The position numbers and the translations under genes are program-made. From NCBI GenBank assembly GCA_026417995.1, contig JAOACF010000014.1:1-33162 (forward strand): a DNA stretch of 33,162 nucleotides, given 5' to 3'. How positions within the stretch are numbered: the stretch's first letter is position 1; each line of letters starts with the position of its first letter. Source of the stretch: Negativicutes bacterium. Its GTDB lineage: Bacteria > Bacillota > Negativicutes > Sporomusales > JAOACF01. The notes below the pieces were generated by a model. That model was not told the DNA's origin. It saw only the letters and a program-made list of their open reading frames with translations, and did no database searches. Shown here in pieces: positions 20,556 to 24,285 of this stretch.

Positions 20556-20584
20556 AGACCCTTATCCCCTAAGGGAAAGGGTCT
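20556..20584 (-). terminator. Intrinsic terminator of the redox-module/rluB unit
   Basis: An 8-bp stem (AGACCCTT with AAGGGTCT) is extended, past a one-base bulge, by TCCC-CTAA-GGGA. On the minus strand it is followed by the pyrimidine-rich TCTTCTT, a weaker U tract than elsewhere. The TAG stop of rluB (20583-20585) overlaps the base of the stem. Confidence 0.75.
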
Positions 20585-21305
20585 ATCTTTTTATTAATTC
20601 TTTTAGTCGAGCGACTTCACTCGCGGTCAAATGCCGGTACTGGCCGCGCCGGACGCCGGTTAAGTCTAGAAAAGCAAAGCGTGAGCGCTTGAGTTGTTTG
20701 ACCGGATGGCCGACTGCTTCGCACATCCGGCGAACCTGGCGGTTTTTCCCTTCGTGAATGACAATCTCCAGCGCTGTTACGTCGCGTTCGGCATCGTATT
20801 CTAATACCTTCACCTGTGCCGGTGCAGTCATGCCGTCTGCGAGCTTTACACCTTTTCGCAGTTGCGTAAGCGCAGATGTGCCAGGCTGCCCTTTGACTTT
20901 AGCTATGTAGGTTTTCAAAATATGACGACTGGGATGAGTAAGGCCAAATGTCAATTCCCCGTCATTGGTCATGAGGAGTAGTCCCTCAGTATTATAGTCC
21001 AGTCTGCCAACGGGATACAACCGCTCTGGTACATCATTTACCAGCTCGGTAACCGTTTTCCGACCCTGCGGGTCAGAAACGGTTGTAACATAACCTTTAG
21101 GCTTGTTCAGCAGGATGTAGACACGCTTGTTCCTTGGCAGCGGCTTGCCGTTCACTGTTACCAAATCATTGGTGTCCACTTTCGCGCCCAACTCTTTCAC
21201 AATTTGTCCGTTGACCGCCACCCTGCCTTCCAGAATGAGTGCTTCTGCATGACGCCGGGATGCAACACCGGCATGACTAATTACTTTTTGAAGACGCTCG
21301 AGCAT
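20583..21305 (-). CDS. rluB: 23S rRNA pseudouridine synthase, RluB family
   Basis: RluB-type enzymes convert a specific uridine in helix 89/90-region 23S rRNA to pseudouridine. The 240-residue protein begins with an S4 RNA-binding domain (RLQKVISHAGVASRRHAEALI, residues 3-60) and has the catalytic motif GRLDYNTEGLLLMTNDGEL with its catalytic aspartate near residue 100. KNRQVRRMCEAVGHPV closes the fold. RluE/RluF/RsuA relatives share these motifs, but the length and lack of extensions fit RluB. The ATG start has GAGGTGAT upstream. It lies 45 bases after the flavin/Fe-S module with no terminator between, so it is likely co-transcribed. In Bacillus subtilis rluB follows spmB directly; here the redox module sits between them. 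Confidence 0.95.
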   Translation of the reverse strand: MLERLQKVISHAGVASRRHAEALILEGRVAVNGQIVKELGAKVDTNDLVTVNGKPLPRNKRVYILLNKPKGYVTTVSDPQGRKTVTELVNDVPERLYPVGRLDYNTEGLLLMTNDGELTFGLTHPSRHILKTYIAKVKGQPGTSALTQLRKGVKLADGMTAPAQVKVLEYDAERDVTALEIVIHEGKNRQVRRMCEAVGHPVKQLKRSRFAFLDLTGVRRGQYRHLTASEVARLKELIKR

Positions 21306-21350
21306 TTAAACGTATCACCTCATAGAGTAGTCGTCTGCTGCATCATATGG

Positions 21351-22328
21351 CTAAATAAAGCTGACAAAATCGGTTTGCACTTTACAGGTCCGGACGGTTT
21401 TGCCGCTGCGCGTCTCTTTGTCGCAACTGCCGCACACACCTTCGCCGCAGCACATGGTTGCATTATTGGTGGCTGCCATGGGCAAATTGAGATTTACGGC
21501 CTGCATAGCGCGAATAATTCCATAATGCTGGTCATCAGGCCCCGCGCTCACGACTAGATCAGGAGTATTGCCCGGTGCGACGATCAAGTCCTGCAGTCGC
21601 GCCAATCCTTCGCGCCGCATTGAATTTACTTTGATCACTTCGATGCCCCATTTGCTAAACTCTTCTTCGACGATGATTTTCCCAATTTTCCCGGGCGCCA
21701 CAATAGCAACGACCTTATTCTTATTCTCGCTTAACGCTTTGGCTATCAGCACCGCCGGGGGCTGACCCATGCCACCTGCCAACAGTACAATATAGCCTTC
21801 GGTAATTTTATCAATCCATGGCTGGCCAAATACACCGTTATAGTAAGGACCCTTCACTACCAAGGTTTGAAGTCCCTGTTCCAGAACGCGAGAAGATTTG
21901 GCACCGATAGCTTCGATTACTACTTCAATCTTTTCGTTTTCTACTGCCATAATTCCTACCGGAAACTTAAAAAACTCGGGATCATCCGATCGGCGCAGAA
22001 AGACAAAGGAACCAGGGCGGTTTAAACTTTCCGCCAATTCTGGCGGAACAAGCAGTTGTACCCGGCAGGTGTCTGGCGCAATTTCTTCCAGCCTGCTAAT
22101 CGGCGCTGCGACTTCGGTTCTGGTTTTGACATCATCCCAGTTCCATTTCTTATTAGTAGTAGACTGCCATGTTTTTTCGTTGAGTATGCAAACGCCCGTC
22201 CAGTTGCAGTTGCACACCTGTTCGCCACGCAGATGGCTGCAATAGACGCAATGGTTAACCTCTGCCAATATACAGGGACAATATGGAGAATTGATGTCGA
22301 TGCAGCGAGCCGGCAAACGATTTCTCAT
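21351..22328 (-). CDS. PyrK/sulfide dehydrogenase-like FAD/NAD-binding subunit with Cys-rich N terminus
   Basis: This 325-residue protein resembles the electron-transfer subunit of dihydroorotate dehydrogenase B and sulfide dehydrogenase: a flavin-binding barrel, an NAD-binding fold (LLAGGMGQPPAVLIAKAL) and a C-terminal cysteine cluster (MCCGEGVCGSC plus RTCK) expected to hold a 2Fe-2S centre. The N terminus is different: eight cysteines fall at residues 9, 17, 19, 27, 30, 39, 41 and 47, a layout I associate with an uncharacterised clostridial subfamily. The start at ATG 22328 has GGGGAGG upstream; the 28 extra track residues overlap the previous gene and are not used. It follows its FAD partner gene by 16 bases. 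There is no pyrD nearby, so a pyrimidine role is unlikely. Electron donor and acceptor are unknown. Confidence 0.8.
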   Translation of the reverse strand: MRNRLPARCIDINSPYCPCILAEVNHCVYCSHLRGEQVCNCNWTGVCILNEKTWQSTTNKKWNWDDVKTRTEVAAPISRLEEIAPDTCRVQLLVPPELAESLNRPGSFVFLRRSDDPEFFKFPVGIMAVENEKIEVVIEAIGAKSSRVLEQGLQTLVVKGPYYNGVFGQPWIDKITEGYIVLLAGGMGQPPAVLIAKALSENKNKVVAIVAPGKIGKIIVEEEFSKWGIEVIKVNSMRREGLARLQDLIVAPGNTPDLVVSAGPDDQHYGIIRAMQAVNLNLPMAATNNATMCCGEGVCGSCDKETRSGKTVRTCKVQTDFVSFI

Positions 22329-22344
22329 GACAGTTTTCCTCCCC

Positions 22345-23625
22345 TTATACCAGACATTGATTATAAATATCGCGAAGACCGCTCTGCTCCACTCGTGTTT
22401 GAATTTGCTCACGGTCTGTTGCGTAAAGACCGGTGGCCTTCATGCGCTCAAAGTAAACCGACCCGGAAAAAGTATAGCGTATTTTAAGCCCGTTCGGTGT
22501 ATGCATCTGCTCATGCACAAAGCTGATAATATCCCCCACGGCCAGCGTCCGCGGCAACTCCAGATACTGCATGTCGATACAACAGCGCACGGCGTTGTGA
22601 CCGGCTAACAACCCAGTGACAATAGCTTCGGTATGACCTACCATTACGCCGGATTTTTCGCCGCCGCAGAAAAGATTGTCGACGCCGTCTACTTTTAGGC
22701 TGTTATTACAAGGTGCAATAGCTAAGTACCGGACTGAATTCCCTTTACCGCCGGCATAAGGATCGGCAAAACGTGCGCTTTCAAACCCAGGAATGGTTCT
22801 TAGCTCTTCCAGCGGGAAAAATGATGTCATGAGTTTTGCGTGTCCTGTATCCAAAAGCACAAGGTTTGTGGCGTACTCATCAACCGCATACTGCGTGCAT
22901 GCCTTTTTACCCAGTGAATTTGTTTTTACCAATTCGTCGGGCAGCTTTACCACTACAACACCGGTAGCCTCCAGGATCCGCCGTATATCCTCGGAGAGTG
23001 AGTCTTTGGCCAGCTTGCAGGAGCCGCTCATGGCACCGCTAGATCCATCGGTTTTGCGTCCGGTGTATTCCTTGACGTCAGCCTTAGCGGTGATACTGAC
23101 CCGCGGGCCAAATGCCGGGCAGCGCAACACGCACATTGCACAGCCATTGCCGTACTTGAGACAGTTGCCCATCGGCCCTGCTGAACCGGTCGTATCGACA
23201 AACGCATCACCGTCAACCGTGTCGCCAGAATCAAGCACCACTGCCTGAATTTTCCTTCCCATTTTCACAACGTCGGTAACCCGGGACTGAAACAACAACT
23301 CCACGCCATAGTTTTTCAGAACACTTCTGACCAGAGGTTCGATAGTTGTAACATCATACAGCGAGGCATGATTATGTCCGGGAAAGCTAATATTCTTATG
23401 CCTGGTTTTCGCGTCCATGGCCACGAACAAGTCGCTGCCACCCATTGCGATCGCTTCCTCAGCAGCGGTATAACGCCCGTTGTTGCGAAAAATGCCGCCC
23501 ACAAGCCCGGTTCCTAATAATAAATCGGTTCGCTCGATAAGTGTAACCTGAGCCCCTGCTTTAGCCGCAGCGAGCGCCGCTGCGCATCCGGCCCAGCCAC
23601 CTCCTACAACCACCACTTTGATCAT
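22345..23625 (-). CDS. FAD-dependent oxidoreductase with internal CX6CX2CX3C motif
   Basis: This 426-residue flavoprotein starts MIKVVVVGGGWAGCAAALAAAKAG, a classic FAD-binding Rossmann motif, and ends its FAD domain with LFCGGEKSGVMVGHTEAIVTGLLAGHNA, reminiscent of the GidA/TrmFO and FAD_oxidored groups. Inserted after the first domain is GNCLKYGNGCAMCVLRCP, with cysteines at 155, 162, 165 and 169, a plausible 4Fe-4S ligand set. The start at ATG 23625 follows a GGGGGG-rich site; the longer track start is upstream in the leader. It is followed 16 bases later by the PyrK-like protein, and the two likely form one electron-transfer complex. The reaction is unknown to me. A pair of palindromes lies just upstream of the gene. 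Confidence 0.75.
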   Translation of the reverse strand: MIKVVVVGGGWAGCAAALAAAKAGAQVTLIERTDLLLGTGLVGGIFRNNGRYTAAEEAIAMGGSDLFVAMDAKTRHKNISFPGHNHASLYDVTTIEPLVRSVLKNYGVELLFQSRVTDVVKMGRKIQAVVLDSGDTVDGDAFVDTTGSAGPMGNCLKYGNGCAMCVLRCPAFGPRVSITAKADVKEYTGRKTDGSSGAMSGSCKLAKDSLSEDIRRILEATGVVVVKLPDELVKTNSLGKKACTQYAVDEYATNLVLLDTGHAKLMTSFFPLEELRTIPGFESARFADPYAGGKGNSVRYLAIAPCNNSLKVDGVDNLFCGGEKSGVMVGHTEAIVTGLLAGHNAVRCCIDMQYLELPRTLAVGDIISFVHEQMHTPNGLKIRYTFSGSVYFERMKATGLYATDREQIQTRVEQSGLRDIYNQCLV

Positions 23626-23650
23626 GGACTTCCCCCCACTCTCCGTATTC

Positions 23651-23680
23651 ACACTTTCAGTGTATTCATGCTAGCGTGAA
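23651..23680. promoter_or_regulatory. Palindrome pair upstream of the redox module (candidate operator)
   Basis: ACACT-TTC-AGTGT (23651-23663) is followed at once by the 16-base near-palindrome TTCATGCTAGCGTGAA (23665-23680), centred on GCTAGC with one mismatched pair. They lie 26-55 bases upstream of the FAD oxidoreductase start, where a promoter must lie because the spmB terminator is just beyond. This looks like a binding site for a dimeric regulator. No regulator gene is adjacent. Confidence 0.4.
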
Positions 23681-23748: not shown

Positions 23749-24285
23749 TTAACCGAAAAGCATCCGGCAAACAATGATCGAACCGATAAAGCCCGTAAAA
23801 TCTCCGAGAAGCCCGACAAACAGCGAATAGCGAGGCTTAAAGACGCCTACCGCGCCAAAGTATACGGTAATGATATACAACGTGGTATCAGTACTGCCGA
23901 GAATGGTTGAGGCCATTTTTCCAATAAGCGAATCAGGGCCGAAGGAATTTAAAATTTCGGTTGTTAACCCCAGCGAACCTGTGCCGGAAATGGGACGCAT
24001 GATGGCTAACGGTGCTAAGTCCGGCGGTATGCCAAACGCCTCTAAAACCGGCCGGGCAACACCAATGCAAAAATCCATCGCTCCTGACGCACGGAAGATA
24101 TTAATGGCAACCAGCATAGCAATCAAAAACGGCATGATGCGAATCGCCGTATGGAAACCTTCCCCGGCGCCTTCTACAAATGTTTCATAAACCTTAACTT
24201 TGCGAAAATAGCCGATCAGCGGTATGAACAATAAAATCGCCGGAATTGCCAACTGTGATAACTCCTCGGTGATATCAGCAAACAT
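23749..24285 (-). CDS. spmB: Spore maturation protein B
   Basis: SpmB is a small integral membrane protein with the nucleoside-recognition (Gate) domain that, with SpmA and DacB, is needed for proper dehydration of the spore core. The 178-residue protein has about five hydrophobic segments, and the family stretches FRASGAMDFCIG, LAIMRPISGTGSLGL and GSTDTTLYIITVYFGAVG are easily recognised. The ATG start lies six bases past the spmA stop, with GGAGGT overlapping that stop region. It is the last gene before the 23704 terminator. The molecular substrate of the SpmA/SpmB pair is not known. Confidence 0.96.
   Translation of the reverse strand: MFADITEELSQLAIPAILLFIPLIGYFRKVKVYETFVEGAGEGFHTAIRIMPFLIAMLVAINIFRASGAMDFCIGVARPVLEAFGIPPDLAPLAIMRPISGTGSLGLTTEILNSFGPDSLIGKMASTILGSTDTTLYIITVYFGAVGVFKPRYSLFVGLLGDFTGFIGSIIVCRMLFG

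Follow-up and report, generated by a model that had tools for sequence, protein, structure and literature searches.

A flavoprotein and PyrK-like reductase pair at the spmAB locus of spore-forming Negativicutes, a candidate dipicolinate synthase

Introduction

Dipicolinic acid (DPA) accounts for 5-15% of the dry weight of spores and is the basis of their heat resistance (PMC5629000). The genes dpaA and dpaB are known to be absent from C. acetobutylicum, C. botulinum, C. kluyveri and C. perfringens (PMC3533761). DPA synthesis without spoVF so far rests on one flavoprotein in one species: EtfA, a common protein (PMC5376575), was put forward as the enzyme that makes DPA in C. perfringens, where an etfA mutant has less than 11% of the normal amount of DPA (Orsburn 2010, cited in PMC4959285) and is not rescued by exogenous DPA (PMC4959285). 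Here we analyze a stretch of 33,162 nucleotides from a Negativicutes bacterium (contig JAOACF010000014.1 of assembly GCA_026417995.1), called the window below, and in it two neighbouring genes, P0001 and P0002, encoding an FAD-dependent oxidoreductase and a PyrK-like FAD/NAD(P) reductase. We propose, with a probability of roughly 0.5, that this pair is an NAD(P)-linked flavin/iron-sulfur dehydrogenase specific to sporulation, most likely a dipicolinate synthase that has so far gone unrecognised. The distribution of the pair fills most of the gap left by spore formers without spoVF, and the question is now directly testable. Our literature search returned no paper on PRK05802, the family to which P0002 aligns, none that links this flavoprotein with DPA synthase and none on the names of the locus.

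Results

Occurrence in spore formers

We used spoIVA as the marker of spore formers in two samples, 81 genomes of Negativicutes and 300 genomes of the phylum, with split genes included in the pair counts for the former. All 49 spoIVA-positive Negativicutes carry the pair, as does one (G062) of the 32 without spoIVA; the remaining 31 have neither, and two non-sporulating genomes (G048 and G076) hold a P0001-family copy only. Across the phylum P0002 is found in 29 genomes, every one of them spoIVA-positive, at an overall spoIVA count of 249 in 300. The pair is found almost only in spore formers, and mostly in those without a known dipicolinate synthase. A sporulation role for P0001 and P0002 is very likely, and the two are probably co-transcribed sporulation genes.

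The first-pass annotation of this stretch had left the pair as a possible NAD(P)H-linked electron-transfer complex standing on its own, with no connection to sporulation drawn, which is what the domain content suggests when taken in isolation. The co-occurrence with spoIVA, together with the conserved spm locus and the insertion of elements into the operon described below, makes an orphan complex unrelated to sporulation highly improbable.

Distribution relative to dpaA and dpaB

DpaA (TIGR02853) gave no match in any of the 81 Negativicutes, among them the genome of the window; the control from B. subtilis was detected. In the phylum sample dpaA is present in 216 genomes and dpaB in 217, and their distribution is close to the mirror image of that of P0002: among the 249 genomes with spoIVA, both are absent from 27 of the 29 that carry P0002, whereas at least one is present in 212 of the 220 that do not (Fisher p 8e-27). 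Conversely, the 35 spore formers that lack both dpaA and dpaB divide into 27 with the pair, five with a P0001-family gene only and three with neither. By sequence P0001 and P0002 are not DpaA and DpaB themselves, as neither TIGR02853 nor TIGR02852 has a match in the window's genome (G000). On a quick tree of spoIVA from 79 genomes, the state with P0002 and without dpaAB appears in about six separate places, and three independent pairs on well-supported branches differ in both traits, all three with the traits changing in opposite directions and none in the same direction (sign test p 0.25, given this quick tree).

A second observation, separate from the distribution across genomes, ties the P0001 family to DPA metabolism: in other lineages it adjoins dpaA. 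In nine genomes (G192, G225, G322, G156, G299, G346, G275, G119 and G251) a P0001-family match lies 35-105 bases 3' of dpaA on the same strand, and in a tenth (G160) the two genes are adjacent; the ten genomes span three families.

Several observations weigh against the assignment to DPA synthesis. The main difficulty is that spore formers carrying dpaAB (families f41, f83 and f139) have P0001 orthologs at this spm/rluB locus too, but no P0002, so that P0001 alone is not tied to the loss of DpaAB. Two P0002-positive genomes (G092 and G321) carry dpaAB, and eight spore formers without dpaAB have no full P0002; some of the exceptions are incomplete genomes (G153, for example, is 84% complete), but G370 is a single contig. 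The sign test, which takes phylogeny into account, comprises three pairs only, too few for significance. Where dpaA and P0001 are neighbours, dpaB is present elsewhere in nine of the ten genomes (all but G322), so that P0001 does not simply take the place of DpaB there. The literature search gave no DPA content for Negativicutes spores, and in these lineages DPA could come from EtfA instead.

Some of these observations would fit a sporulation-specific flavin/iron-sulfur oxidoreductase that acts on another sporulation metabolite or in redox balancing, the exclusion of DpaA/DpaB then reflecting shared lineage history. Such an enzyme would be consistent with the strong link to spoIVA, with the P0001 orthologs at the spm locus of dpaAB-positive genomes without P0002, and with the small number of independent lineages. 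We nevertheless consider it rather unlikely, because the mutual exclusion of P0002 and dpaAB recurs in about six lineages with no contrary pair, and because dpaA and P0001 adjoin each other in three other families.

Alternatively, EtfA could synthesize DPA in these lineages, as proposed for C. perfringens, with the pair as its accessory electron acceptor or partner. The pair does look like an electron-transfer module, and the low DPA content of the C. perfringens mutant (Orsburn 2010, cited in PMC4959285) would agree with this. However, a protein as widespread among bacteria as EtfA would not account for the replacement of DpaAB by P0002, and the failure of exogenous DPA to rescue the mutant (PMC4959285) suggests that the role of EtfA may be indirect. 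Among the Pfam and NCBIfam matches listed for P0001 and P0002 there was none to Etf, although no search aimed at Etf was made. We regard this explanation as improbable and retain dipicolinate synthesis by the pair itself as the preferred reading.

Protein families and cysteine layout

P0001 reaches the gathering score of the GidA superfamily (PF01134, 133.8 bits for a cut-off of 22.1) and matches PF12831 with 76.1 bits (cut-off 27); its orthologs in relatives are 62-77% identical. It is neither MnmG (TIGR00136, 49.5 of the required 524.85 bits) nor TrmFO (TIGR00137, 34.9 of 428.65 bits), both scores being far under the equivalog cut-offs. P0002 aligns to NF004470/PRK05802 over residues 8-321 of 325 with 289.9 bits, short of the curated cut-off of 313, which is exceeded in 18 of the 300 phylum genomes, clostridial homologs from the same kind of pair among them. 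Both in sequence and in the structural model, the core of P0002 is similar to PyrK and to the small subunit of NfnI. In the model the core (about residues 70-285) is well predicted as an FNR-like FAD/NAD(P) fold, with dihydroorotate dehydrogenase B and NfnI as top matches in PDB, and both cysteine regions have a predicted local distance difference test score (pLDDT) below 50. The AlphaFold2 model of P0001, based on 22 alignment rows, has a pLDDT of 57 and was left out of the fold search.

The cysteines had been read correctly in the first-pass annotation. Its CX6CX2CX3C motif at Cys155/162/165/169 of P0001 is where it was placed, and neither these four residues nor Cys243 vary in any of the 87 family members. 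The first 47 residues of P0002 hold exactly the eight cysteines that had been counted (9, 17, 19, 27, 30, 39, 41 and 47), and the C-terminal motif of 2Fe-2S type that it described is present at Cys293/294/299/302/315; all are invariant in 20 aligned relatives. PF10418, the 2Fe-2S domain, scores 12.2 bits here and so stays under its cut-off of 23.9, although the four-cysteine motif itself is present and invariant. With this invariance across family members and relatives, the cysteine layout of the two proteins is far beyond chance. Judging from fold and motif, each subunit would bind FAD, P0001 a 4Fe-4S cluster and P0002 a 2Fe-2S cluster, with NAD(P) as the partner. A known metal domain for the eight-cysteine N-terminus, such as one like that of ferredoxin-thioredoxin reductase, was considered and dropped, as Pfam gave no match.

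Proteins of 227-266 amino acids (aa) in which an eight-cysteine N-terminus of the P0002 type is fused to a reduced domain occur at four other loci (L068 6125-6808, L069 5845-6543, L070 123-923 and L071 5112-5825), close to the transporter or B12 genes that also belong to the clusters of P0001 paralogs described below. The eight-cysteine segment looks like a separable module.

Pairing, upstream element and neighbouring genes

The stop codon of P0001 and the ATG of P0002 downstream are separated by 16 bases, as first annotated. P0002 adjoins P0001 at nearly every intact locus examined, in Negativicutes with P0001 first. At clostridial P0002 loci a P0001-family gene stands beside P0002 in the same orientation in 17 of 17 cases, mostly with P0002 first and at one locus (L126) with one gene in between. 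The check that the first-pass annotation had suggested, whether the two proteins always co-occur, therefore comes out one-sided: P0002 keeps to P0001, but P0001-family genes exist also without P0002, and there they retain the conserved cysteines. The same annotation had suggested that the two proteins could form an NAD(P)-linked flavin/iron-sulfur complex with no function described so far and with similar pairs in other anaerobes, and the comparison supports this; what it missed is the link to sporulation, the complementarity with DpaA/DpaB, the paralogous clusters and the repeated integration of elements into the operon. The product list of the window's open reading frames, read by eye, contains no pyrD-like or sulfide dehydrogenase partner, in keeping with the earlier reading.

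The operator that had been suspected ahead of the module is a real conserved element, GTGGCACTT-N11-GAATAnACTGTAnTGTGA, found with constant internal spacing 40-48 bases ahead of the P0001 start codon in 20 of 20 relatives. With up to two mismatches allowed it is nearly confined to the P0001/P0002 operon in 13 genomes. An assignment to a sigma factor was tried and set aside, there being no other strong copy in the 13 genomes and no clear match to sigma-factor consensuses, those of sporulation sigma factors included.

The gene order scpA-scpB-ytfJ-dacF-spmA-spmB-[P0001/P0002]-rluB is common to many families, in whole or in part. The flanking genes in the window are ones that we take, from family knowledge, to be spmB and rluB (Table 1). 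The interval 20583-23680 originally given for the module does enclose both genes and also takes in rluB, which is not part of it. At the left end of the contig, positions 3-284 encode the N-terminal 94 residues of spoIVA, and the remainder lies on another contig (C72) of the same genome; the assembly breaks within spoIVA.

Table 1. Positions in the window of the gene pair, its motifs and its neighbours.
Feature	Position	Strand	Basis
P0001, FAD-dependent oxidoreductase, GidA/TrmFO-like superfamily, 426 aa	22345..23625	minus	PF01134, PF12831, orthologs
P0002, PyrK-like FAD/NAD(P) reductase, 325 aa	21351..22328	minus	NF004470/PRK05802 alignment; fold match to PyrK, NfnI-S
P0001 Cys155/162/165/169, CX6CX2CX3CP, probable 4Fe-4S site	23119..23163	minus	invariant 87/87; cluster type predicted
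P0002 N-terminal eight-cysteine segment, Cys9-Cys47	22188..22304	minus	all eight invariant (alignment A1)
P0002 C-terminal C293/C294-x4-C299-x2-C302-x12-C315, 2Fe-2S-type motif	21384..21452	minus	invariant; PF10418 below cut-off
Promoter/operator-like element upstream of P0001	23649..23687	minus	20/20 relatives
P0001 codon 346, integration point of large-serine-recombinase elements in relatives; uninterrupted in the window	22588..22590	minus	split loci of relatives
Presumed spmB, upstream neighbour, outside the module	23749..24285	minus	position, translation, same synteny in relatives
Presumed rluB, downstream neighbour, outside the module	20583..21305	minus	position, translation, same synteny in relatives

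Paralogs of P0001

A tree of 87 P0001-family proteins places the copies found beside genes for a pyridoxal phosphate (PLP) enzyme, RidA, a B12-binding protein, a DUF1611 protein and a transporter in one clade of 35 rows (support 97/98), which also takes in a few copies from other contexts. The P0002-linked copies, the dpaA-adjacent copies and most copies at the spm locus fall outside it. In the window's genome one copy is linked to P0002 and two belong to the PLP type. The paralogs are 59-65% identical to P0001 and keep all of its motif cysteines, and the RidA beside them suggests imine products, so one could imagine that the pair likewise serves general metabolism, as a dehydrogenase of amino or imino acids. 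However, the PLP-type copies form a clade of their own, apart from the P0002-linked ones, and Negativicutes that do not sporulate almost never carry the pair; we think this possibility quite improbable.

The paralogs belong to an uncharacterised and widespread gene set that consists of the PLP enzyme (about 488 aa, family unassigned), the P0001-like FAD enzyme, RidA and the B12-binding protein (about 605 aa), further with a DUF1611-like P-loop protein, an FCD-type regulator and a transporter without a Pfam match. Such sets lie at L066 3941-14060 (contig C203 of the window's own genome), L067 8745-12010 (C177), L120, L121, L125 and L178-L190, and in some clostridia the set directly adjoins the P0002-P0001 pair. 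A transporter-like membrane protein of 460 aa, conserved beside the cluster, is encoded at L066 7366-8748 and has no Pfam or NCBIfam match. At two further loci (L210 and L212, from dpaAB-positive genomes of families f43 and f71) a P0001-family gene lies near genes for 4Fe-4S and FAD/NAD-binding subunits like those of sulfhydrogenase, which are perhaps another electron-transfer partner.

Interrupted operons

Nine Negativicutes have an interrupted operon, with P0001 split in eight and P0002 in one (G020). In the junctions that were read, the 5' piece of the split P0001 stops at codon 346. A serine recombinase (PF00239, PF07508, PF13408) is found at the junction in L086 (4125-5609) and L099, with BLAST relatives (48-62%) at L158, L160, L161, L162 and L163; in G020 a related recombinase (40%; L073 5693-7225) splits P0002 near codons 36-39. 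The inserted elements measure from about 2 kb to 42 kb in codon 346 of P0001 and about 50 kb near codon 36 of P0002. Sporulation genes of Bacilli and Clostridia are known to be interrupted by elements of this kind, which are excised during sporulation (PMC5595907, PMC4191935, PMC5025042). The interruptions seen here fit a gene that is dispensable in growing cells, and the elements are candidates for skin-like elements excised during sporulation.

Discussion

Dipicolinate chemistry for the pair stands at about even odds in our judgement. P0001 and P0002 would be the two subunits of an NAD(P)-linked flavin/iron-sulfur dehydrogenase that oxidises the product of DapA, dihydrodipicolinate, to DPA, the last step of synthesis, in spore formers without DpaA/DpaB. 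This reaction is suggested by the analogous conversion of dihydroorotate to orotate by PyrD-PyrK. In the proposed path a hydride would pass from the substrate to the FAD of P0001, the electrons would move from there to the 4Fe-4S cluster at Cys155-169 and on to the iron-sulfur sites and FAD of P0002, and P0002 would finally reduce NAD(P)+.

In its broadest form the proposal is that the pair represents a third, unrelated kind of dipicolinate synthase: an FAD/4Fe-4S dehydrogenase and a PyrK-like NAD(P) reductase with a putative eight-cysteine metal domain, which would replace DpaA/DpaB in all sporulating Negativicutes and several clostridial families and would descend from a sporulation flavoprotein at the spmAB locus. 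We put forward this wider version tentatively, as having slightly less than an even chance of being correct. The pair would also open a way to the related PLP/B12/RidA gene clusters and to the integration sites in sporulation genes of Negativicutes.

How does the pair compare with described systems? DpaA/DpaB (SpoVFA/SpoVFB) would share the proposed reaction and the sporulation role, and DpaB is a flavoprotein too; the two systems differ in that no sequence relation between them was found and that their distributions are complementary. The EtfA of C. perfringens is likewise a flavoprotein proposed to synthesize DPA without spoVF (Orsburn 2010, as cited in PMC4959285), but it belongs to another protein family and was not seen at the P0001/P0002 locus. 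With MnmG and TrmFO, its relatives in the GidA superfamily, P0001 shares the FAD-binding halves, whereas the CX6CX2CX3C motif is an addition, the protein is shorter than MnmG and the equivalog scores are out of reach. NF004470/PRK05802, annotated as sulfide/dihydroorotate dehydrogenase-like FAD/NAD-binding, covers nearly all of P0002 and includes clostridial homologs of the pair above its cut-off, but the P0002 of the window falls below it, and the family has no described function. PyrK, which serves dihydroorotate dehydrogenase B, and the small subunit of NfnI share with P0002 the FNR-like FAD/NAD core, the C-terminal CX4CX2CXnC motif and the use with a separate subunit carrying the substrate flavin; P0002 differs from them by its additional N-terminal eight-cysteine segment, its sub-threshold PF10418 score and a GidA-like neighbour in place of pyrD. 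Dihydroorotate dehydrogenase B (PyrD-PyrK) has the same layout as the path proposed here, and it also aromatises a dihydro-heterocycle carboxylate.

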